A stretch of DNA of 64,000 nt from Polytrichum commune (lineage: Eukaryota; Streptophyta; Polytrichopsida; Polytrichales; Polytrichaceae), in the NCBI GenBank assembly GCA_950295325.1, contig OX485807.1, positions 32,828,440 through 32,892,439 on the forward strand, read 5' to 3'. The position numbers and the translations under genes are program-made. Within the stretch, counting starts at the first letter, position 1; each line of letters begins with the position of its first letter. Below are positions 784 to 47,891 of the stretch, in pieces. A model generated the notes under the pieces. That model was given only the letters and a program-made list of their open reading frames with translations, had not been told where the DNA came from and made no database searches.

Positions 784-1899
784 TTCTGGTGAATTGTGAT
801 GTTTGTTTGGAAATTTAAACAGTATCCTTGGCAGAGTCCCTCAACCGCATGCAGGATAACTTCAAGGGCCTCTAGACTGTAACAGCGACAATGGCGTGGA
901 CTCGATTTACATCACATGATGCCATATTCAAAATCGAAGTGTCACATGCATCGGAGCAATGCAATTCCAATTTCAACATTAAACATGCAAACTCCCGAAG
1001 TAAAACTTCAAAAAGTCTATTCGGACAGAACCCAAAACCCCAAGGGTGAGAATTCCGTCTCTGTGTCCTTACCTGAAGCCAGTACTGTCCAACAAGGCTT
1101 CCCAACACTCCAGGTCCCACCACAAGCAAGTCACTCTCCGCAACTCCACCTTCTGCCGGATTCCCTCTCATTTCATCTGCATACTACAAAATCCCAATTA
1201 GCCAAAACCCAAAATCTTAAAATCCCAAAAAACAAAAGTACAAAACACAATGGTAAACCTGCATAAGGTAAACGTCCCTAAGTCCAACATACCAACGATC
1301 TGAATACCTATATTTGAGTGGTATATGGTTAAAAGACATCGTCATGTATCTACAGCAAGATTGGACTATGTGCTCAAATTATGGTAATCCATTCAAAGTT
1401 CAGCAGTCACCATCATGGGGCCTATATGACCATTTAATGAGCCCCCCCGAAATTCTTCACTTTGATTCGAGAATGCTCCGCAAATTATTATGAGACCAAA
1501 TAATTACGGCTACGGGCACGATTTGGATTTTCCAATTATCTCGCTCGTACTTAAACATTGTGATGTGTTTCACGTCCTACACGAAGTGGGTGCAGACAGA
1601 AAAAAGTATCCGAATAATACACACCAATCTTACTACAAAACCTCTATCAGCCAAAACCCACAACCCAGAAAGAAATCAAGTAACTGAAACACAATGCGTG
1701 TCCGAGATTGAATTGGGCAGGGTCGTACACAGGTCGGTTGAGGCCCCAGCGCGGACTGCCATTGAATCCTGCATCCTCCCAAGCCCTCCAACGTGGTTGC
1801 AAGAACCAGGTGCAGAATTATGGCGAGGGAGACGAAGAGAAATGGAATTGGAATGGTAGAAGGTGGCATGTGGGAGGGAGAGCAGAGTGTTGGAAATGT
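784..1899. other. Intergenic, no gene seen
   Basis: Only short open frames with no recognisable domain or splice context. A degraded copy of the dispersed TATTTGAGTGG repeat lies near 1300-1420. Confidence 0.5.
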
Positions 1900-2090
1900 G
1901 GGAGTGACTTTGAGGTGCGAGAGAGGGAGGAGGGAGAGAGGAGACCACAGCCATAGCCATGGTGGAAGAAGAAGGGAAGGGAAAGGGAAGGGAAGGGGAG
2001 GGGATGAGGTGGGCAGTGTAAGAGATTTCTCTCATTCCCTTGGGCTTGTGACATCATCATGCAAGTTTTGTTGCCCATATATTAAGCTAA
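1900..2090 (+). repeat. Purine-rich dispersed repeat, left flank of the 7.3 kb element
   Basis: A GA-rich stretch ending in a segment with CATAGCCATGG and TTGTGACATCAT. It is homologous, in the same orientation, to 10020-10195. It is interrupted at TAA (2088-2090) by the element that follows. In the second copy the sequence runs on past TAA into sequence that matches the right flank of the element. Confidence 0.8.
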
Positions 2091-2580
2091 GGGCCTGTTT
2101 AGACTACAGTGAAGAAGTGCACGGGTCAAGAATTCTAGAAGAATGGAACAATATGATTGATCTCGGAACGGGTTCTTCATTGGCTGGGGTTTACACTATG
2201 ATTAAGAACTTCAAGCATGGATGAAAAATGACAGGAATATCAACATGGCAAGATTTTTTTTGTTAGGGGAGGTTCTCTAGTGAGTTCTATGGAGTTCTTT
2301 GAGCAACCTCAAACCCTCGGACAAGAAACTTGATCTTTGGAGAACTCCTCTAGCAAAATATGTTGCCATGTTGGCAACCATTTCATTTTTTTTTCATCCA
2401 TGCTTGAAGTTCTCCAGACCTTGGACAACTAACCAACTAATTCAATTATTAGTTAACTTGTTGCCTTTCGTAACTATAGTTGTTCGTTGTTTGACTTTCC
2501 AAAAAATGTAGTTAACTATAGTTGTTCTAAATTTAGCCTGCTAAAAAATCTAGTTAAGTATAGTTATATATATATCAAGT
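2091..2580 (+). repeat. Left long terminal inverted repeat
   Basis: Matches 9130-9424 in inverted orientation. Shared landmarks include TGAAGAAGTGCAC, CAATATGATT, GGGTTCTTCA and GGGTTTACACTATG, followed by several TAGTTAACTATAGTTG units. The arm is interrupted by a nested fold-back at about 2209-2412. Confidence 0.75.
2209..2412. mobile_element. Nested MITE inside the left TIR
   Basis: The ends AACTTCAAGCATGGATGAAA and TTTCATCCATGCTTGAAGTT are perfect inverted complements about 200 bp apart. The homologous place in the right TIR lacks the intervening sequence. Target duplication not determined. Confidence 0.6.
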
Positions 2581-3030
2581 TAACTAAAGTTGAGCGCAAC
2601 ATGTTCACGGAAGTTTTATGTAGTGTTGAAGTGTCACTAGTGTGTATTTGTGTCGGTGGTGTACATAGAAGTTGTTCCAGAGCCATTAGAAAAGTTATCA
2701 GGCCTTTAAGAGGCCTCCAATATTCGTACCCAATGGAGCCTATGTGCAGAGCCTGCCCGTGGCTACATCAAGAACGTATGACGTGGAAGGCAGTTGTACA
2801 GGTATGATTATCCATCGAATGAGAAAGTGGGATTTAGGCGCCAAGAAGCCTTGTGCGCTTACATTGTTTTGAAGTGTCAATGTTTCGCGCGCTTCTGTGG
2901 TTTCATTGTCTTTCTGACCGCTCTTCTTTTTCTATGTGTTTTTCTATGTGTCGCTTCTCTTTGCCAAGGAATTTTGCCAGGTTTAGGTTTGCTTCTAGGA
3001 ACTCTCTGGTTCTCTACTTCTGTTTCGGCA

Positions 3031-4817
3031 ATGGCTATCGGAGCGATTGAGTCAGTCAGTATTGAAAATATTTCTGAAGCAGGAGTTAGGGTTTCATTGA
3101 GAGTAGAAATTAATTCGTGGGTTTCTCTTAGGCCTAGAAAAAAGGGAGGGCACGCAAAGGATGCGGCAAGGCACGGTGGTGCATATAGCATTGAAGGATC
3201 TTATAAGGCAAAGATTTCGGGATTCCGCATGAGTCCAGGATGCAAAGGCGTTTCGGCAGTGCAAGTGCAACACGCATATCAGCGCCGTCAACTGGACTTA
3301 GATCCCATAGTCTTAATTGGGCTAGGCGCCGTAAACTGTAAGTTAGAAGCTTCGTTTCCTTACAGCATGCTTATTATTGTATTGTTAACTTTTTTTCCCT
3401 TCAAACATTGAGGGTTCTGTATATTGTTTATCTTGGCAGACTTTTGATGGCTCGAATTCTCTCTACTCCCTGAGTTCTCCTAATGTCGTTCACTTTTTTT
3501 TCTTGTCAATCAGTATGTAGACTGGTTCTCACCTTCTTCAGTCAGTTTCTCGTTTTGTCCGATTCTATATTGGTGATGAAGTTGTGAGTTCCGTGCATAT
3601 GAATGGTAGTGCATGTAAATTATTAGTTCAGAATTAGCGTCGTGACAAGAACAACGGTACCAGTCATGCTACTGTGCAGCTGTGGAATGAACTCCCATGA
3701 CATCACCAGTAGCTACTCTTTGCTGCAGTAGAACTCATATGGCATTTTGTTAAATGTTGTGGAACTTATCATTGCCATGCCTCGGTGGGCTCTGAGCTAA
3801 ATTCTATCGAAAATGTGTGCTCCTGAATCTCATAATTATGTCTCCTTCGTTTCCTTACAGCATGTTTATTATTGTATTGTTAACTTTTTTCCCTTCAAAC
3901 ATTGAGGGTTCTGTATATTGTTTATCTTGGCAGACTTGTATTTGAGTGACTTCAAAGATTGGGTACACCCAGAGAGCATCATTGGAGTTATTGTGGTTCT
4001 TCATGCTGAGATTGGAGAGCGTACTCGAGGGGTCAGGTCACATGCGGAGCTCTTAAGGGACAATGTTTTCTTTTATAATGCTACATACATACCAAGATCA
4101 AATTCTTTGACTTTTGGGACAGTGATCCCAATTCCACTTCCTGGACTCGAATCAGCTGAATGGCCGTTGCCAGATATGTATACAACAGAAGTTTTTCGGG
4201 CCAGATTTCGCACAGAGTTTCAATCTGCAATGAGGCCTACTACCGGCAGCAAACAGACACATTTCTCATGCTTTCTACCTATTCACGTCTTTGTTGATCT
4301 GTTTGTTGTAGCAAGTTCAAATGTTACAAGAAAGCCAACAATGTTTGTTTTCAAACCTGTGAAAAAAGAACTCACAGATTCCTTGATGGATCAAGGATGG
4401 AATATTAAAGTTTCAATAGGCGTTGATCACATCAAATGCACAGTTGATTCTACTTCACTGGTATTCCGTTATCACATTGGTAGGTCAATTCTATACACAA
4501 ACTTTGTGTACAATCGAGAAAGGCAAGTTGGTCTTAATAAATGGCAGGCTATGGATAATTTTGAGCCTGAAGTTATTGTGACTATCCAGTGCGAGATGGG
4601 AGACATGTGGAGCCAAGAGCTGGAAGTTGGAATGTCGTGGTCCCTGTCAGATGTGAGAAAAGAATTAGAAGTGTATTTGGGAAGTGATATTGAGTTTAGG
4701 CTTGCGATCATTGATTGTAACAGAGCGAATTTAGTCAACTACAGAAACGAAAAGAAGAAGTTTGTTGTAGACTTGTTACCACCAAAAAAACTTCGCCTTA
4801 TAGAAAAATTAGCTTAG
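3031..4817 (+). CDS. Unrecognised 396-aa protein in the 7.3 kb element (two exons)
   Basis: Exon 1 is 3031-3337 (ATG to a GTAAGT donor) and exon 2 is 3934-4817 (after TTGGCAG, ending in TAG). The junction is in frame (VN|YLYLSDF), giving 397 codons with the stop. I start at the ATG beginning MAIGAIES because the sequence upstream is T-rich and leader-like. The frame is open back to 2794 and would add a hydrophobic stretch, so a longer N-terminus is possible. I see no known domain. The C-terminal 80 residues (from about VTIQCEMGDMW) look like a small mixed alpha/beta unit; that is a guess. The gene points toward the centre of the element and converges on the transposase-like gene. Introns and codon choice look plant-like. 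It could be an accessory transposition protein or a captured host gene. Confidence 0.6.
3350..3937 (+). repeat. Direct repeat duplicating an intron 3' splice region
   Basis: Segments 3350-3443 and 3845-3937 (94 and 93 nt) are almost identical. Both contain a pyrimidine tract and TTATCTTGGCAG. Only the second acceptor keeps the frame of the surrounding gene; using the first gives a stop after three codons. Confidence 0.85.
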
Positions 4818-5343
4818 TTGATCAAGATGTTAAATTCTTGATATGTTGATCAAGATGTTCATCTTAATATGTTTCTCATGGTCATCCACTTCAATAAGTT
4901 TGTAGCAATGCAGATTGTCGTTCATGATCACTCTTTGCATCACAAATCACCTGGCTGTTTGTTTAGAGCTTGCTCTAAATTTTGCACGTCAAGTGTGTAA
5001 GTGTGTAAGAGTCAACTTGTTAGTTGCACGTCAAGTGTGTAAGAGTCTGTATTTGTAATCACGAGAACCAGGCTAAACAACAACAAAATGGTACAACAAG
5101 ATGCGTTATATGCGCGCGTTAGATGTTGTCAAGGGGTCTTCACAACTTCCCTCATCAGACACATTCTTTCAAACGATGGAGAGTTTACAAAATGGCCTAG
5201 GATAGTTCCATTTGATCAGCTTACCAGTCTGGCGGTCTCCCTATCAACATCCAACTAATAAACCCAGGCCTAGAACTTCAAGTAGAACGTCGCAGTACAC
5301 CTGGGGCGCGAACATATTAAGCTTAGTTGATCAAGATGTTAAA
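4811..5343 (+). repeat. 24 bp direct repeat at the 3' ends of two convergent genes
   Basis: A 24-mer beginning AGCTTAGTTGATCAAG occurs at 4811-4834 and 5320-5343. The first copy holds the stop codon of the plus-strand gene and the second holds the stop codon of the minus-strand gene. The 485 bp between them has no gene. Confidence 0.85.
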
Positions 5344-8300
5344 CACTATTGTTGCTTGTGCATGCTTCTTCAGTGATTGGCAACCACTTGCTGCCTTGGC
5401 GTCGACACTTGGATCTCCATGCTGCACTGTGAGCAGTTGCACTAGATCGTAAGGAAGCCTCCCGCCTTGCAGCTATTGCTAGCTCGGCTTCTAGAGTGTC
5501 GAATTCATTCACAGGAATCTGAGTATCTTTATTTCGAAATCTATGGGCTATAATCCGGTACCAATGTTGAAAAATTTGTACCAAAGGACTCTTCTTCACT
5601 CTACCTCCTGAGTGTTGGGTGTGGCGTTGGTAGGCAGTCTTAGCGGCATGATGACTATTTTCCACTCCCTGACAGCTCCATACTGCTAGAGAACCATATT
5701 TCTCTACAAAAAACACAGCATGTCGTACTAGAACATGTTGTTTGACAAGTGAGGTGATATAGTTAGATATGATTAGTGAGGTGATAATATTAAACAACAT
5801 GTAATATACTTATATAATCGAGCATATAGCAACAGAGCTCTCTATTAGTACACCGTTTGTTGTTCAAGGCACATTTCCATACCTAAGATGAATTATAGCT
5901 GATTTGCACTCTTACACTGAGGAGACACTTTGACAGGCAGACGTACCATACAGACATGAAGTTGTGGAAACGTACCATATAATGAGTCACATGTTGCTCT
6001 CCGAAGCATTTCACAAATAGCCTACCCCATGCTTCAACCTTCTGTTTGAAATCTGCAGCTGATTGATTCTCTTGCAATCTCAGACCTTGGCAATAAGGCC
6101 GGAGTTCATCTAATAACCTCCAGAGCTCAAGCCGGTCTCTTTTATCTTGGCCCCTATTAGCAAAATTTTGCTCTGCATTCACTACATCAACATATAACTT
6201 TCGTGGTGTAGATCCTGTAATCGTTTCAGGATTGAGCTTGAAAAGCTTCATAGCATGAGGTCCACTGAAGGAACATTTGTTTGGAATGTTATTACACTTC
6301 CCTGACAAGTCCTCGTCTTTAAACATAATGACATTGCCACCGTGGGCTCCAGTGAGTGATACGGCTTTCTGCATCTTGATAATGGCCTCCTTCTGTCGTG
6401 CTTCATTTCGTATCACCCACACTTGCATGAAGTGCAGATGCACAAGCTTCTCTATGATTCGATTCAGACAATGGAGTGTACATATGTGCACACGGTCTAA
6501 GGGGATGGGCAACACAGGCTTCCACCGCTCGTGTCCAATTGTTGGACTTGCATCAATTGTGTTGGAAAACATGCCATGACTCCATGAGTACTTCTGTTTT
6601 TCCTTCATTACTGTCTCAGCTTGCTCGATCGTTCCTATCATTGACTTACATCGTTGTTGATTGCAGTATATGCAACTAAATGGGTTGTTTGCTCCCATTG
6701 AAAGGCCATACATGCATTTCACTGTTTTCATGTCGGCTGCCATGTGTCATTCGACTTTGAATGAACCTATTCCTGCAACTTCAAGCATTTGTCCTCTCTC
6801 TTGCTTATCTATCAATGATGGTATTTTAGTTTGGGAGAACACCCAACTTAGTATCTTATGCGACTCTTTAGGAATCTGAAATGCAGCAATAGGCCAGACT
6901 TCTCTTTCGCTCTGCACTGAAAAATATTTCTCACTTTTAGGATCTATACTACTGTCAAGGGCTCTATTCATCAGTGTTAAAGAGACTCTCTCAAACTTTT
7001 GAGCATGCACAACTTCTGCTTCATCGAGCTTAATACAGAACATGAGTGGATTCCTGTTCAGCTCTACAATAAAAAAATTTAAACAACATGTCAAAAACTT
7101 ATATTCAATGATGCACAAATCAATGAGATTGAAGTGAACATGCAGCTTCATTTCCAACTCTAATATAAACTCTTGAAGGTGAACATGAACTCATGAAGAG
7201 CTGTGATACATACCTTCAATTGTGATGCCATATAGTTCAACCATTGTGCGTTGCACTTGCTCCACATCAGCAAAAATGTTGTTGTATTGATTCAAGGAAA
7301 CGATGACAGAGTCTTTCTCCTTAGATTTAGTTGGTAGTGGAAATGTGTTTGATTCAGTCAACGAGTAGTAATCACCAATGAACTCTGCTAACTTTAGATT
7401 GAGCATTTGTCTGGTTTTGGACACTCTGAAAGGCCTTGGAAGGCAACCTATTCGCAAACCTCTGTTTGACACCTTTACAGCACTTTGGAAACGTTTGTAA
7501 AGAGCAGCGTAGCCATTCTGTGTGATGCCATTATAGTCCATTGTTTCGACAATTTCCTCTGGACCAATGCTCTCTCCAATCTTGTCCATATATTCATTTG
7601 CAATTCCGACTCCTACTTTGTTCATTCTTGTTGTTTTGCAGATTGCAGATACTTCATTTACTGACAACATATTTGCAAGGACCTTCCCTGTTTCAGCTTG
7701 TTTTTCATGACTACCACAAAGACGCCGTCGAGATCCAGTTTCGGAATTCTGACTGCATATTTTTGTTAATGTGGTTGGCGCTATGATCGCCCTGGCCAAT
7801 CTCATTGTTCTTTTTGCTTGACCCCCTCCTGGAGCGAGATCGCATAGATCTTTGCGTGGTCTAACTATACTACGATACCCGAAAGGCGTTCGAATCAATT
7901 TTCCAATTTTTGCTTCTCGCCGTCTCAAAGTCGCCTTGGTTCTTTTGAGTTGTCCCTGAATTAATTTGAATTTCTCTTCATTTTGCTCCTTCTCACTTTC
8001 GATCAATATCCACAAGTCTAATTCAACTTGAAAGCGATCTTCTGCACTTTGTGATTCAATAGCAGTGAAATTGCGGATACGCTCTTCGTGATCAAACTGC
8101 ATGGCAGAATATTCTTCTCTCAACGTAGACAACTCGCCTCTCAAAGAATCGGTGGTTACAAGGACCTCTCTACTTTGCTGAACTATGCTCTCACGTGATT
8201 GAATTTCGGAACAAGCGAAGTTAAGTAGTCGATTCTTTTCCTCAACATCATTTGTCAATCGTAGAATATGCTCACGAAGTGCTTGTATCTCTCTCTTCCC

Positions 8301-8612
8301 TTCATCAATTTTGAACAACATTGTACTGTCAAGTGAGCATAAACTTTCTACATAGCCTAAGAGACCGTTTTTCCCCTCTCCAACATATTCTAGTAATTGG
8401 CTGACGCTTCGAAAACAAGGTCGTTTATCCAAAACAGGGTGCTTGGGATAAAGAGATCCATCAGTCCAAAGGTCAATACATGTAGCTCCCGCCTCTCTTA
8501 ATGCTGGAAACTCTGACTTGTGAGTTTGTTCATGCAACATGCGACTGCGATTTATCAATGGTGCATATTTAGAACCGATGGTAGCAGATAGTTTATAAGG
8601 TTTGTCTACCAT
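5339..8612 (-). pseudogene. Decayed transposase-like gene with N-terminal coiled coil
   Basis: Exon 1 runs 8612-7214 (ATG, then donor GTATGT). It encodes an N-terminal region, a long coiled coil (roughly residues 95-235) and a basic linker. Exon 2 starts at 7063 after TTGTAG and stays in frame to a GTACGT donor at 5976, except for an in-frame TGA at 6749-6747. A last exon lies at about 5730-5339, but no acceptor there restores the phase. After the coiled coil come an acidic site in KLDEAEV (7023-7025), a second in AADMKT (6732-6734), a CIYC pair with a later H/C-rich stretch, and an E in VENSHH (5660-5662). This D, D, E order with Cys and His between suggests an RNase H-fold transposase. That is inference from spacing; I cannot assign a named family. 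The position inside a TIR element supports it. Confidence 0.6.
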
Positions 8613-9129
8613 TTTTTAACCAAAAAAATACTATCAATCCAAAATTTGACAGACACAAATGCTACAGTGTACTGCACAATCACGCTGCAAAAGCATCACG
8701 CCAAATCTAAAACCATACAGACTAGCAGACGCTGCTCTTCATGACACACAAAATGCCACGAAAAGAAAATGGAACCGCATGAAAAGAAAAGGTCTGTTCA
8801 TGGATAGAATTGGAGCGGGAAAAATGGAGCGGGAAAGTTGACGACATGATGACGTGTGACAGGCGCATGGGCATGACAGTGAGCATGGGCAGCTTCTTTG
8901 AACTTCCCGCTCGATGACCGCCCATTCTTGGAGGGGAATATTCCCGCTTGCCCGCCCATTCCTAGAGGCACATTGTCAGGATTTGATCAAAGGACCAAGG
9001 CCTTCTCCAGGCCTCATAATTTTTCTAATGCAAGCACTATGAATGATTGTATAAAGGTGTTTCTTGATGATCTTCAATGGCCCAAGCATATTAAAGACCC
9101 TCAACTAAAGCAAATCAAGAGGTGAACTT
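8613..9129. other. Region upstream of the transposase-like gene
   Basis: Probable promoter and leader of the minus-strand gene. It contains GAGCGGGAAAAATGGAGCGGG and CCCGCTTGCCCGCCC stretches that form a weak inverted repeat, possibly a degraded small MITE. No gene seen. Confidence 0.4.
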
Positions 9130-9424
9130 CTTCGAATATATAATAATACTTGGAATTTTTCTAGTTAACTATAGTTGTTCTTCACATTGGTTTGAGATTT
9201 TTCTAGTTAACCATATATAGTCGTTCCCTGAAATGTATTGAAAAAAATATAGTCAAATATGGTTATTATAGCAATTGTCCAAGGTCTGAAGTTCTCCACC
9301 ATAGTAGTCTTGGCCATAGTGTAAACCCTGGCTCGTGAAGAACCCATGTCGTAGCTAATCATATTGTTGCATTCCCCTTAAATTCTTGATCGGTGCACTT
9401 CTTCATCATTGTCTAAACTAGCCC
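9130..9424 (-). repeat. Right long terminal inverted repeat
   Basis: Inverted homologue of 2091-2580 without the nested insertion. It ends in GTCTAAACTAGCCC at 9424 and is followed by AAAGTGTGCC, which matches the sequence after TAA in the related empty site. Confidence 0.75.
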
Positions 9425-10019
9425 AAAGTGTGCCTAAGTAATGTGGTCATTGAGTTACTATTCATGCAAAAAACACAAGAGAGTTGACTCCTTTGACTGC
9501 ATGAATGACAACTTCCACAAAACGATGAGGTAAAGAGGAGGCAAACATGACAAGTGTCATGAGGTTATACGTGTCAATGGTTATGACAATGGTCAATCTT
9601 GTTGGTTATTAGTGTAATTTAGGATAGGCCCCATAATAGGGTAAGTGACATTGTTAGCTAGGTGACACTACATATCATAAACAATGTAATTACAAATGAG
9701 CCGGTTATATTTGAGAAATAACCACTTCAAGTTCAAGACTTCAAGTAAATTATCGATCCTTTGAAAGGAATCCATGGAATTGTTGAAGAAAAGCTTTAAA
9801 ATTTTAACATGTACCCGGTTGGACTTGGAGACACTTGGATCTGGACTGAATTTGCCCAAAATCTTCTAAGACATTGGTTGACTCCCATGTTCCCACTAGC
9901 GGGAATCATGGTGTTGCTTCATCTTGTACATATAATTTAGTTTGAATCAAAAATTATGGAAATCAGAGGGACCTAGAAGAATATTGCCTCTTTTGAAAGG
10001 TGAACACCTTGAGTAAATG
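9425..10019. other. Intergenic repeats
   Basis: The first 70 bp match 10196-10265, which is empty-site homology. Near 9690-9860 is a degraded copy of a family containing GAAATAACC and TTCAAGACTT, also seen at 11265-11340 and 39620-39670. No gene seen. Confidence 0.5.
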
Positions 10020-10270
10020 AGCTTTGACATAGCCATAGCCATGGTGGGAGAGAATAGAAAAGGAAGGAAAGTAAGGAGGGTAGGATAGGGAAGGGAACGT
10101 GGGTGTAGGTAAGATGAGGTGGACAACGTATCAATTTCCCTCTTATTCCTTTGGATTGTGACATCATAGGAGTTTCATTGCCCATGTTTTAAGGTAAATG
10201 TGTCTTATGTGGTCATGACTACTTGTGAAAAAAACATGAGGGTTGACTCCGATGTTGCCACCCGCTTAAT
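10020..10270 (+). repeat. Related empty site of the 7.3 kb element
   Basis: The left part aligns with 1930-2090 (CATAGCCATGG, GTGACATCAT, TTGCCCAT). The right part aligns with 9425-9492 (TATGTGGTCAT, GTTGACTCC). They meet at a single TAA (10195-10197 region), where the other copy carries the 7.3 kb insertion. Confidence 0.75.
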
Positions 10271-12074: not shown

Positions 12075-14073
<1,999 letters not shown>

Positions 14074-14892
14074 TACTTAGCCCTGGAAACATTCAATACC
14101 AACCGTAAAGACCCAGGCCAAAGTTCCTTTTGTAATCTGAGATAGCCTTATTTTGCATAATGCACCAAACGTATTTCGGAGTGCATTACATTTTTGGGCA
14201 GGGCATTACATTCATCAACTAATGAGTGCCATTGAAGTCCGTCATCAAGCCTTAACATTCGGTAATACATGAGGAGGACTGCATTATGGGGAACACAGAG
14301 ACCTCTGTTCGGGTATCATCTCACAGGTGCACTTAATCCCTATAATATATTCCCTCGAATAATAAATTACCTATTACAAAGAAAGTACAAAACTGAGCGC
14401 TTCCGATCACGTAGGTTTACTTGCACCAATGTTGGGTTGGTATAACTTCTTTTAATATCCTTAATGTTTTATATGTTTTCAAGATTGAGGTCTACACCAA
14501 CCTAGCTTTATGAAATAATGTTGGGCTTTGGTGATTATGTCCTAAAAAATGGATTGTGCTTCATCATGTCGATAAATGCAACGGACTTGCCTTTTTCAAT
14601 GAGGTTCAAACTAAAATTTACAATGCACACCTACTCTTAGTTTCAGGAAAACCCCTAGCCCATAAAATGATGTGCCACTTATGTAAACGTTCACACCTAC
14701 TCCTAATTGCAAACACTTGTGTTGGAACATCAATCCTAAACGATGTCACTTGGTTAAGGCTCAAGCATGGATCACTACATTCATTGTTAGCATTTGAATA
14801 GTTAGCAAGATTACAACCAAAATATCAACTACAAGATTTGAAGGGTTGCAGACATGCTTGCAACCATTGTATGGCATTGAAGAATTAATTTG
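14074..14892. other. Intergenic, no gene seen
   Basis: AT-rich sequence with short open frames lacking recognisable motifs. TGCATAATGCACC near 14155 and GACTGCATTATGGGG near 14278 form a weak inverted pair, possibly an old MITE. Confidence 0.4.
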
Positions 14893-14903
14893 TGTTAAAT
14901 TAA

Positions 14904-17900
14904 ATTAAATTCATACTCGCCAAATATGGGGGCTCTAAGGAAATCACCCGCATTAAATACCACCACTATGTTAGATCACCCATCACTAGAACATTATTCT
15001 TGCTCAAACATAAAGCCGAAGTCCACCTAAAAAATACAATAAACAAATTCCTACTAACCCCATCCCCACTTGAAACTGCCTGGATGCAGGAAGTACAAAT
15101 GCTTCACGGCCTAAATTCCAACACCTCACTTAAATTACTACACAAACTACTTATACATAATATAATCACACTAGACCAAATTACCATGCCTAACGGTACC
15201 ACTCTAATGAACCCAGACGAATTCAAAATCTACCACTCCACTCCTTCTAAACTTATCAAAAGCGCACTTAACATAGCTAATCAATTATTTTGTCACCCCC
15301 CTTGTACTCAATGTCCCCTACCATGCCAACAACACCATCCACCAAGATCCCTAAAAAATAAATATATAATTAGACACCACAATATCCTACCACACTCACC
15401 AACCGCCCCCGTACATTCCCCTAACCTTCCCATCCCCCTTCTACCCCCTCCTCCCAACAACATGCTTAAAGACCCCCGACAATTCCCCATACACAAAATA
15501 ATCGATCATAAACAAAAACAATCCAAAGACCATAACGGAATAAAAAGAACAGTCACGTCGTACTTATGTCAATGGACTACAACAAATAACAACACATATA
15601 ACAAATGGCGAACTCGAAGGGACCTATACCCCTACTGCGAAGCCAACACATGTAATCACAACACAGACCTACTTATCTATTACTACAAAGAAAGACAACA
15701 CAAACATTTTCCAAACATAATTAATGCCTATTTCTCCACAGAACAATATAGAGACACAAGATACGTCACACCAACCACAATAATTCCACTCGCACATATC
15801 TCTATTAATGAATGCAACCCAGAAAACGACATCGAAACAAACTCTGATACCATCCAAACACAATACGATATCGCTCACATATACGAAGACAATGGCCGAC
15901 ACCTCATTACCATCCCGAAAGCTAGACTAACATGACTATGGAAACAATACCAAATGGCAAAAAACAACACACACGGTCTAGAACCATCTACCCAATCGTT
16001 CGAAACTGAAGTTGTCTGGTTATATCAAAGGTACAAATACCGTATCCCAAAAAATGACCCACTCAAACGCGCCCAACATACAATACCAACCCAAATATTA
16101 GATCTCCTGATTACAACATTCAATATTAGCCACTCATATTTTTCATCCCCAGTTACATGCCCCACACAATTCACCCAATTTTACTCACCATTCTCGCGAG
16201 ACATAATGTTCGGATCCCTAGGTAAAGCGTTTGACCATAAATGGCAAGGAATCGGTTACGCACACCCTCATAATACAACAGACCTACAACAAGCTATTCA
16301 TTGGGCGCGCATAGCGGCCCAAAATGATCCATATACAATCACTATACTTATATCTCCGGATACTAATTGGTACCAAAACTCCAACCCACACACAGGCCCA
16401 TTCCCAGACACACACGTCATTGCCCATTTCGCCGCTGATACGATCACGTATGAGGAACCCACAATACCCCCCGAGCTCAATATCACAAGAAAAGAACCAT
16501 CTACCATGCAAATATTTTGTATCCATCACCAAAACAATAACATAGGCACCTAGGAACAAATGAAATTAATAAACGACACAGCAAATAACCTCCAAATACT
16601 ACAAAGTCACACACAAACTGCACCACCCACCCCTCCAAACATCAAAGTTAACCCTAGTAAAAAATGGGCCAAATCAAACTACCCAAATACAATCCCACAC
16701 AATAATACCCCTACCCCACAACTTCCAAACTATCACACTAATCTACCGCTCAAATTCCACCCCCAATTCAGTTACTACACGGATGGTTCCTTTATAAAAC
16801 CCAAAGAAATTGCCCCTGGGGAATGGAGAAGAGACAGAGCTGGATACGGTATCTACAGCCCCAAAGGCTTAAATATCGCCAAAAGACTCAATGGGCATCA
16901 AAACATACTACGTGCAGAAATGATGGCTATACACAAAACACTAAGAATCATCAACACACAATTCCCTAATGAACCCGCATTTATATTCACAGACAATCTA
17001 AACGTATTATACCTACTCAACACACAAATTAAACACCCCACTCTACATAATAGTCACCCAGACCAAACCACACTCAACTCCATGGTAAAAATCCTTCAAA
17101 ACCGTACACAGCCAATCACATTATACAAAGTTAGAGCACACGTCAACATTGACGGTAATGAAAAAGCGGATAAACTAGCAAAAGACGGGTTAGAATTAGA
17201 ACACAGAATTGCCATCCACCCATACGAACATGCCCACGCCACCCCGTACTATTATCAAAAGGACGTCTGGGCCTCGATGGCAGACGTCCCAGACAAAGGC
17301 CCAGTAAGATTCCTAGAAAAACAAATTAAAAAATATGATAGGGAAACCAATATAGCAATCATGGTCACACAAACCCCCAACATGTGTAAATGGACAGAAA
17401 ATATAAACATTGACAAAGAATTGTCCAACGAATTCTGGACAAATCCCTTAATCACAGACAAACAAAAATCCTGCCTTATTAAATTCCGCACAGGAACATA
17501 CATGGGTAATGCTAGAAAACAAATGTTCTTTGGTCACCAGAGGTACCCCTCTATCACGTGTCCTATATGCAATTCAAATGATACAGACACTTGGCTACAT
17601 GTACTACTGAAATGTAACCAACAACATATACACTCACTACGAATTAAAATACATAACAAAACAGTTGGAGAAATTAGGAAGCTCCTAATCTCGTCCGAAA
17701 AATCCCGATGTTTTACCCTCATGAATGCCGGTACCTTCAATAATAATCCCCAAGAAAATACTGTCCCCAATTGGCTACTCCCCTGCACATGTAACACACA
17801 AAGATGTCATTGCAACGCAAGATTTCGACCCGATATACTCTGCGTTCAAGGATTACCATATCAAAATGACCCTCCCATTGACATTGACCCTAACCTCACC

Positions 17901-18233
17901 ATACAATTTATTGAATTCACATATTGTAACGACAGATTCTCCCCAGAAACAATAGAAGCAAAAAACAACAAATACAAACCATTGATTGATAGTATCGCCT
18001 CCAGAGGATGGAAAATCGAACCACTTATTGTCATCACAGCCGGGGCCCGAGCTACGGCCCACATCCCATCTATGAAAATACTAGAAGAAAATCTCAAAAT
18101 ACCCATGGTTACCATCAAAAATACCTTTAAAAATATTAATACCATTGCAATACAATATGCCATGTCCATCCTCCTCCATAAGAGGAGAATTGAAAACCAC
18201 CAACTGCTCCCCCAAAACTTAGACCCTCCATAA
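14904..18233 (+). pseudogene. LINE ORF2 remnant: RNase H, CCHC finger, endonuclease-like C-terminus
   Basis: One frame runs from the truncation point to TAA at 18231-18233, broken only by TGA at 15933-15935 and TAG at 16551-16553. No reverse transcriptase catalytic motif remains; the first part is probably the thumb/connection region. RNase H follows at about 16770-17190, with all four acidic sites: D in YYTDGS, E in ILRAEMM, D in FIFTDN and D in GNEKADKLAKDG, the last preceded by the usual His (VRAHVN). A CPIC-x9-H-x4-C zinc knuckle lies near 17557-17610. The C-terminal part has FRPDIL then FIEFTYCND, which could be a restriction-like (PD-D/E-x-K) endonuclease as in R2- and Dualen-type LINEs; this is inference. 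The frame is preserved enough to suggest a fairly recent insertion. Confidence 0.88.
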
Positions 18234-46799: not shown

Positions 46800-47891
46800 C
46801 AGTCTAACCTTGATAATGTCACACCATCCGTTTCACCAAAAAGAGTGATATAAACAAAGTGTGACATATTTGATAATGTTACATTTTGAAGATTTGTGCA
46901 TAATGTGATATTATCAAAAAAATAGGTAGAAAATCAAAATAAAATTACAATGTAAAAAAGAAAATAACAAATACGAGACTTCAATGTTTTTGAATGTAAA
47001 ATCTAATTCAAAATTGTGAATAACAACAAGAGCACATCATAATGTGTCATTGAGATCAGGTAAAGACCTCTCACTAGACCAGCTCAGCTAAACCGTAGAA
47101 CTTAACTTCCTGAATTACTTCACACAAGCCAAAACCCTCATGATCAATTCTGGAATACACAACATGCAAGTGATGGCATTGGTGTCTTCCACACGCAAGA
47201 CCTATCTGCTCACTCCCAATTTCCGTGTTCCCATCTATGAGAGAAAGCCAGAAACAGAGTTGAGGAGGTTATCTCCAAAACTAGGAAACGAATCATATGG
47301 GCACCCAAACTAATTAACCAGTGATAAACAACCCTCTAACTTAGTTTACAAATTCTACTAAACAAAATTGGGGATCTCCCTCTACTTCCCAAATGTGAGT
47401 ACCTACCAGAAACCCCAATTCTAGCTCCATGAAGCAAAATTCCTTGGTTTCTTCTTCTTCTTCTTGTGCCCACATGCGTGAACGCCGTGAAAAGACACAC
47501 AGTTGAACACATGTGACGGAAGGTGGGGTGCATAGAGGCCGAGAAGTCTTGACAGCGCCGTGAAAAGACAACACCTTTGAGTGCCGTGTATAGACAACAC
47601 CGTTCAGGGTTGGTGCACGATCAAGTTCCAAGAATAGCATTGCATTTATCACAGGGGCGGCGCATGACCCTTTCGGCTACTACAATTTGTCCATCCAACC
47701 ATCACATACAATCCATCCATACTTGGTATTATCACATTTACACTACGGATTTTGGAAAAAAATAGTGACATTACCAAGGGTGATAGGGATAATAACGAGG
47801 GAGTTTTACACTATAAAAATCGGTTTCAAACTTTTAGGTGACAATATCAAGGTGTTCTATTAACAATGGTGACATTATCAAGGTTAGACTG
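46800..47891. mobile_element. Pogo/Tigger-like nonautonomous element, 1.09 kb
   Basis: Termini CAGTCTAACCTTGATAATG and its inverted complement (ending GGTTAGACTG at 47891) have TA on the right and TT on the left (expected TA). Ends of the form CAGT..aaCCT.gATAA are typical of pogo-type Tc1/mariner elements. No transposase frame is recognisable inside. Confidence 0.75.

Follow-up and report, generated by a model that had tools for sequence, protein, structure and literature searches.

We analysed a 64,000-nucleotide stretch of the Polytrichum commune genome (assembly GCA_950295325.1, contig OX485807.1, positions 32,828,440 to 32,892,439 of the forward strand; hereafter the window, with position 1 as its first letter). 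Positions 2091-9424 of the window hold two mobile elements, one nested in the other: an inner element at 2684-9030 (6,347 bp), which is bounded by its own inverted ends CATTAG...CTAATG and carries two genes, a candidate transposase and a partner, and a surrounding outer element of about 987 bp. The features are given below; the codon coordinates of D1, D2 and C(2)C were derived by hand from the exon boundaries.

2088..2090, no strand: TAA, left flank, presumed target-site duplication of the outer element
2091..2683, no strand: outer element, left part, with the GGGCCTGTTTAGAC end (inverted repeats, homology edge)
2684..2718, plus strand: left terminal inverted repeat (TIR) of the inner element, CATTAGAAAAGTTATCAGGCCTTTAAGAGGCCTCC (inverted repeat I3; sharp homology edge with L009, L010 and L023; ends alike across families)
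3031..3337, plus strand: partner exon 1, covering the initial portion of a tentative BAH-like domain (one of five members matches Pfam BAH, weakly)
3934..4817, plus strand: partner exon 2 to the stop (homologues; signature of purifying selection)
5339..5737, minus strand: transposase exon 3, ending at the stop and containing H(4)H and the candidate catalytic E (codon 5662-5660)
5976..7063, minus strand: transposase exon 2, with candidate D1, candidate D2 and C(2)C
6674-6672 and 6665-6663, minus strand: codons of C(2)C, exon 2
6734-6732, minus strand: codon of candidate D2 (ADMK), exon 2
6747..6749, minus strand: in-frame TGA of the window copy; TGG (W) in L009 and L010
7025-7023, minus strand: codon of candidate D1 (KLDE), exon 2
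7214..8612, minus strand: transposase exon 1, N-terminal region; weak coiled-coil matches in relatives
8996..9030, minus strand: right TIR of the inner element, CATTAGAAAAATTATGAGGCC... read inward (inverted repeat; ends alike across families)
9031..9424, no strand: outer element, right part, ending GTCTAAACTAGCCC (inverted repeats, homology edge)
9425..9427, no strand: AAA, right flank, one mismatch to the left TAA
10195..10197, no strand: single TAA, paralogous empty site of the outer element (alignment)
47044..47045, no strand: empty-site junction for the sister copy L009, an exact join without duplication

The genome that contains the window (408 Mb in 64 contigs, of which seven measure 42-78 Mb) was searched with one transposase exon, which gave at least 52 matches, some of them pieces of a single copy. 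The loci compared are the 20 places behind exon matches plus six additional stretches, five of them extensions of these places. When window positions 1791-9724 were aligned with 20 genomic loci by blast, the close copies L009, L010 and L023 aligned solely within 2684-9033, at 96-98% identity apart from one 96-nt piece of L023 at 91%; the L023 copy is internally shortened. Because the close copies stop at 2684 and 9033 and CATTAG...CTAATG lies at those edges, we assigned the genes to the inner element, and the GGGC ends and TAA to the outer one. The confinement of three close copies to this interval, without the outer ends, contradicts a single 7.3 kb element at 2091-9424, which a first-pass annotation had described as one complete transposon. 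That annotation had also held that ends occurring apart from the genes would speak against it; the genes do occur elsewhere without the GGGC ends, which comes near to that situation.

Other parts of the first-pass description stand. The inverted ends GGGCCTGTTTAGAC and GTCTAAACTAGCCC are present at 2091 and 9424 with two convergent genes between them, and the further inverted homology it reported exists as arms at 2091-2207 and 9308-9424 (117 bases, 75% complementary, with GGGC ends) and as short pieces such as I5 and I7. The empty site that it placed at about 10020-10270 aligns across both flanks and holds one TAA, yet validates the outer element only. The proposed TAA duplication, of the TWA kind associated with PIF/Harbinger, is visible in the left flank and as the single TAA of the empty site, but the right flank reads AAA. 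A search of 34 loci and the window for outer ends gave self-matches only, bar a single 40-nt stretch that matched L031. We identified no gene in the outer element. This element is older than the inner copy and possibly Harbinger-like: its GG-starting ends and TAA flank resemble PIF/Harbinger, whereas arms of about 1 kb in total without an identified gene do not.

The ends of the inner element define a family. CATTAG (CATTAC in L015 and L016), followed by purines and, further inward, a GGCC-like block, recurs at the tips of divergent families, and eight selected ends give the majority string CATTAGgAgngnanTnannCCtnnangnGGCcgCn. Eleven complete elements spanning 3.8-13.1 kb were recognized (the window copy, L009, L010, L013, L014, L015, L016, L018, L023, c3, composed of L030 and L017, and c5, composed of L032 and L020); all of them carry CATTAG or CATTAC at both tips, and all have CA..TG termini. 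Relatives in viral contigs and prokaryotic genomes were sought by pattern, and none of the 65 and 38 matches, respectively, proved to be a relative by tblastn. None of the papers listed by our literature searches was seen to deal with this element, and the family is seemingly undescribed; we claim absence from print no further than those listings. At L016, positions 1787-8503 hold an element between inverted TACAGTC tips, apparently a second nesting, and L028 carries a related sequence without the insertion.

The transposase of the window copy is broken by the nonsense codon at 6747..6749, while the stitched frames of L014, L015 and L019 contain no stop. Its first intron is GT..AG. The bases preceding exon 3 are AA in the window and L010, AT in L009, and AG in L011, L013 and L015; from the AA of the window set against the AG of the latter three, we infer the start of exon 3. 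A first database search returned five homologues (E 1.3e-143 to 2.4e-69), and a second one 36 (E 1.8e-44 or better). Two homologues come from the fern Adiantum nelumboides and are the only ones with precomputed Pfam domains, which seemingly derive from fused, unrelated parts. A RAG2_PHD match in a piece of the window's exon 2 (E 0.2) was weak and judged to be chance.

Candidate catalytic residues are conserved across the family. KLDE, the D of W-H-[LM]-[AS]-[AG]-D-[LM]-K, and C-x2-C are kept in all 14 aligned near-full-length sequences, while for the E motif Q-G-M-E, L013 has S-M-E, L018 shows a G, and L020 lacks it. Spacings were measured in the 13 sequences other than L020, in which the E pattern is absent. 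The D-D spacing is 97 in 10 of the 13 and 104 in L013; in L012 (205) and L018 (173) an earlier KLDE was apparently matched. The D-C spacing is 20 in 12 of the 13 and 19 in L018. H(4)H was found in eight of the 13, each with an H-E spacing of 19-20, the remaining sequences including stitched exon junctions; D-E spans 266-280, with 310 in L012, where the frame includes intron sequence. For RAG1, PMC4914335 gives D600, D708, E962, C727/C730 and H937/H942, and this numbering yields spacings of 108 (D-D), 19 (D-C), 20 (H-E) and 254 (D-E). The family thus has the trait of Transib and RAGL proteins, a RAG1-type D-D-E whose C(2)C and H(4)H zinc ligands are similarly spaced, with an overall similarity that does not reach significance (best E 0.15).

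RAG1 heads two of the PDB searches. A five-core profile run against 177,635 PDB sequences gave three matches at E<=10, all of them RAG1 (E 0.49-1.2), and the two motif blocks line up with RAG1 in the right order; the L021 core by itself had RAG1 as its best match (E 0.15) and as nine of its 16 matches. Several results weigh against a RAG1 relationship. None of these E-values is significant alone, and the score of the five-core alignment comes from the H(4)H-E block (9-10 bits), with the D2/C(2)C block adding about 0 bits. With the window protein, RAG1 ranked fifth of six PDB matches (E 0.37); the broader profile A4, which has a thin C-terminus, found nothing in PDB; and family member P0007 matched three other chains, not RAG1. 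A 286-aa piece of the window protein matched the Glr2806 protein (E 0.00037) with no single stretch passing, a match that weakened to E 0.14 with the full protein and that we judged to be chance. Furthermore, none of the families listed in Pfam scans of the transposases was relevant (one scan listed 25 of 58 weak families). On the motifs and their spacing, and not on the E-values, we read the transposase as truly but very distantly related to RAG1.

The second gene lies on the plus strand. A database search returned 29 partner homologues, none listed with a pertinent Pfam domain. With the window partner as tblastn query, the gene was found in 12 of 21 loci, the window included; a partner profile, built partly from these tblastn-positive loci, raised this to 16 of 21. 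In all 16 the gene is convergent with the transposase, and it is present in 11 of 11 complete elements, L013 keeping a remnant only. The profile did not find it in L019/c2, L021/c6, L027/c7, L022 or L024. Selection was compared on seven transposase and five partner exon sequences, leaving out two same-family pairs. Between families, nonsynonymous differences affect 0.21-0.35 of sites in the transposase and 0.30-0.37 in the partner, and synonymous differences lie at 0.73-0.90, mostly saturated. Nonsynonymous differences far below synonymous ones indicate that both genes are under purifying selection and were kept as proteins while the families diverged. In the partner intron, a block of about 94 bases is near-exactly duplicated (3350-3443 and 3845-3937), including the region before the splice acceptor, and both copies are also present in L009 and L010.

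The partner N-terminus is tentatively BAH-like, which we offer as a lead and not as a result. In its N-terminal half, residues 103-159 align, in a plausible register, with positions 61-114 of the 121-position Pfam BAH profile. To set against this, the match is weak and occurs in one of five members (E 0.11 and 0.23), BAH is absent from the 12 families listed for 33 partner members, and a PDB profile search with the partner N-terminus returned avidin only, itself judged to be chance. Other weak Pfam matches, DUF1997 in seven of the 33 and ubiquitin in two, are no better founded than BAH, and kelch is absent from the Pfam matches listed. We give an even chance to the alternative that the partner has a different fold and binds nucleic acid or protects the ends instead of reading chromatin; the weak signal in one of five members favours it, and the register of the BAH match tells against it.

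We examined insertion sites for the inner family. A paralogous empty site of L009 (contig C5) lies in the window itself, where the repeat at 46800-47076 matches at 97.5% over 277 nt and the flanks join exactly at 47044/47045. Similarly, the empty site of L016 lies in L028 (88.8% over 249 nt), again with an exact join, and at these two clean sites no base was lost or added. L013 sits in a tandem repeat whose intact units favour a plain join over a 4-bp duplication (91 vs 81; 79 vs 67). In the flanks of the 11 complete elements, lengths 3-12 match no better than shuffled pairs, and no consistent duplication was seen. The three empty sites thus show insertion of the inner family without target-site duplication. 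The counterweights are a slight excess of flank matches for one and two bases (P 0.04 and 0.03, respectively; 12 lengths tried), and a total of three known empty sites, one of them inside an imperfect tandem repeat; for the inner element of the window itself, no empty site is known.

Three other readings of the insertion sites were tried and rejected. For a duplication hidden by a shift of the tips, the one shift reported is the AT within CATTAG/CTAATG, which is trivial. A plain join accounts for the empty sites better than a CATG target does and, at L013, better than a 4-bp GTTT duplication. The tandem repeat at L013 consists of GTAGGTTGTTGGTTTAGA-like units at 3388-3590 and 8391-8790, split by the element.

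Taken together, we consider it likely that 2684-9030 is a decayed, almost full-length member of a transposon family that moves by cut-and-paste, has CATTAG...CTAATG ends and two convergent genes, and integrates with zero stagger. In this scheme the transposase, probably with its partner, would cut the element out at the CA/TG tips, and both element ends would be joined to directly opposed target phosphates, so that target DNA would be neither duplicated nor lost. The plus-strand gene would encode a partner conserved alongside the transposase, which may be a chromatin binder of the BAH type. The DDE chemistry assumed here is suggested by the conserved candidate residues.

Among the closest known systems is the CMCT clade (EnSpm/CACTA, Mirage, Chapaev, Transib, Plavaka, ESTA and Lanisha), for which PMC12730594 describes C(2)C and H(3-4)H between the second D and the E, mostly CA..TG termini, and 2-5 bp duplications. 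An ordinary member of one of these lineages (EnSpm/CACTA, Chapaev, Mirage, Transib/RAGL, Plavaka, ESTA or Lanisha), too divergent for Pfam and with decay hiding its duplications, would share the C(2)C (14/14), H(4)H (8/13) and CA..TG termini (11/11) seen here, and RAG1 tops two PDB searches. Such a member is nevertheless unlikely, as the 2-5 bp duplication described there is absent from all three empty sites and not consistent in the 11 flank pairs, the ends read CAT and not CAC, and no relevant Pfam match is among those listed.

RAGL elements have 5-bp duplications and a kelch RAG2 (PMC7204232), with the second gene between the TIRs and mostly convergent (PMC7204232, PMC9435367); Transib-like proteins have been reported in plants (PMC9435367). 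The inner family resembles RAG1/ProtoRAG in its D-D-E with C(2)C and H(4)H and in a convergent second gene between the TIRs, but differs in TIRs that start CAT (CATTAG/CATTAC) instead of CAC, in lacking the 5-bp duplication, in its marginal sequence similarity, and in a partner with no kelch match listed. Spy, a PHIS element, integrates without duplication and prefers AAATTT, according to PMC4482050. The inner family is alike in leaving no target-site duplication; the AAATTT preference was not seen in the flanks of the 11 elements, nor was a PHIS-type transposase.

A distinctly improbable alternative is that a RAG1-like transposase excises a blunt-ended element, which end joining then captures at chance double-strand breaks with no strand transfer. 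RAG-type enzymes release blunt ends, and break capture would likewise yield no duplication, but exact joins such as those at two clean empty sites would rarely result from end joining. That the interval is one 7.3 kb PIF/Harbinger-like (PHIS) transposon with a TAA duplication is scarcely credible: it would account for the GG-starting ends, the TAA/AAA flanks and the one TAA in the paralogous empty site, but close copies end at 2684 and 9030-9033 without GG ends, the inner CATTAG ends are alike across families, and neither a Harbinger transposase nor a Myb domain is among the Pfam matches listed.

For the genes, the PIF/Harbinger framing of the first-pass annotation finds no support in the CATTAG...CTAATG ends, the three empty sites without duplication and the RAG1/CMCT-type candidate residues. 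The gene-bearing element shows no 3-bp TWA duplication in the three empty sites or the 11 flank pairs, and a Harbinger-type DDE transposase with a Myb/SANT partner is not among the Pfam matches listed, which agrees with the same annotation's impression of an undescribed plant element with neither gene. Of the profile searches on both proteins that it had proposed, Pfam gave no relevant match among those listed, and the transposase profile reached RAG1 in PDB without significance. Since the inner family has the CMCT motifs and termini without the duplication, and is like Spy only in the missing duplication, we filed it under no named family; it is probably a new lineage working like a RAG1/CMCT transposase.

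More tentatively, and at somewhat less than even odds, we propose a new land-plant superfamily that combines a RAG1-type recombinase with an unrelated BAH-like chromatin-reading partner, an independent echo of the RAG1/RAG2 plan, with blunt, duplication-free strand transfer that would set it apart from the RAG1/CMCT relatives on record. If true, RAG1-like enzymes would gain a plant branch that has a different partner and a zero-base stagger. One could then test directly what determines the stagger in DDE transposases, and whether RAG1-type enzymes were joined to a chromatin-binding partner on more than one occasion. As we found no relevant Pfam domain in them, such elements could be overlooked when plant genomes are annotated by domain.

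Elsewhere in the window, positions 14001-18000 show a strong negative GC skew (-0.30 to -0.35), exceeding that of the rest of the window.

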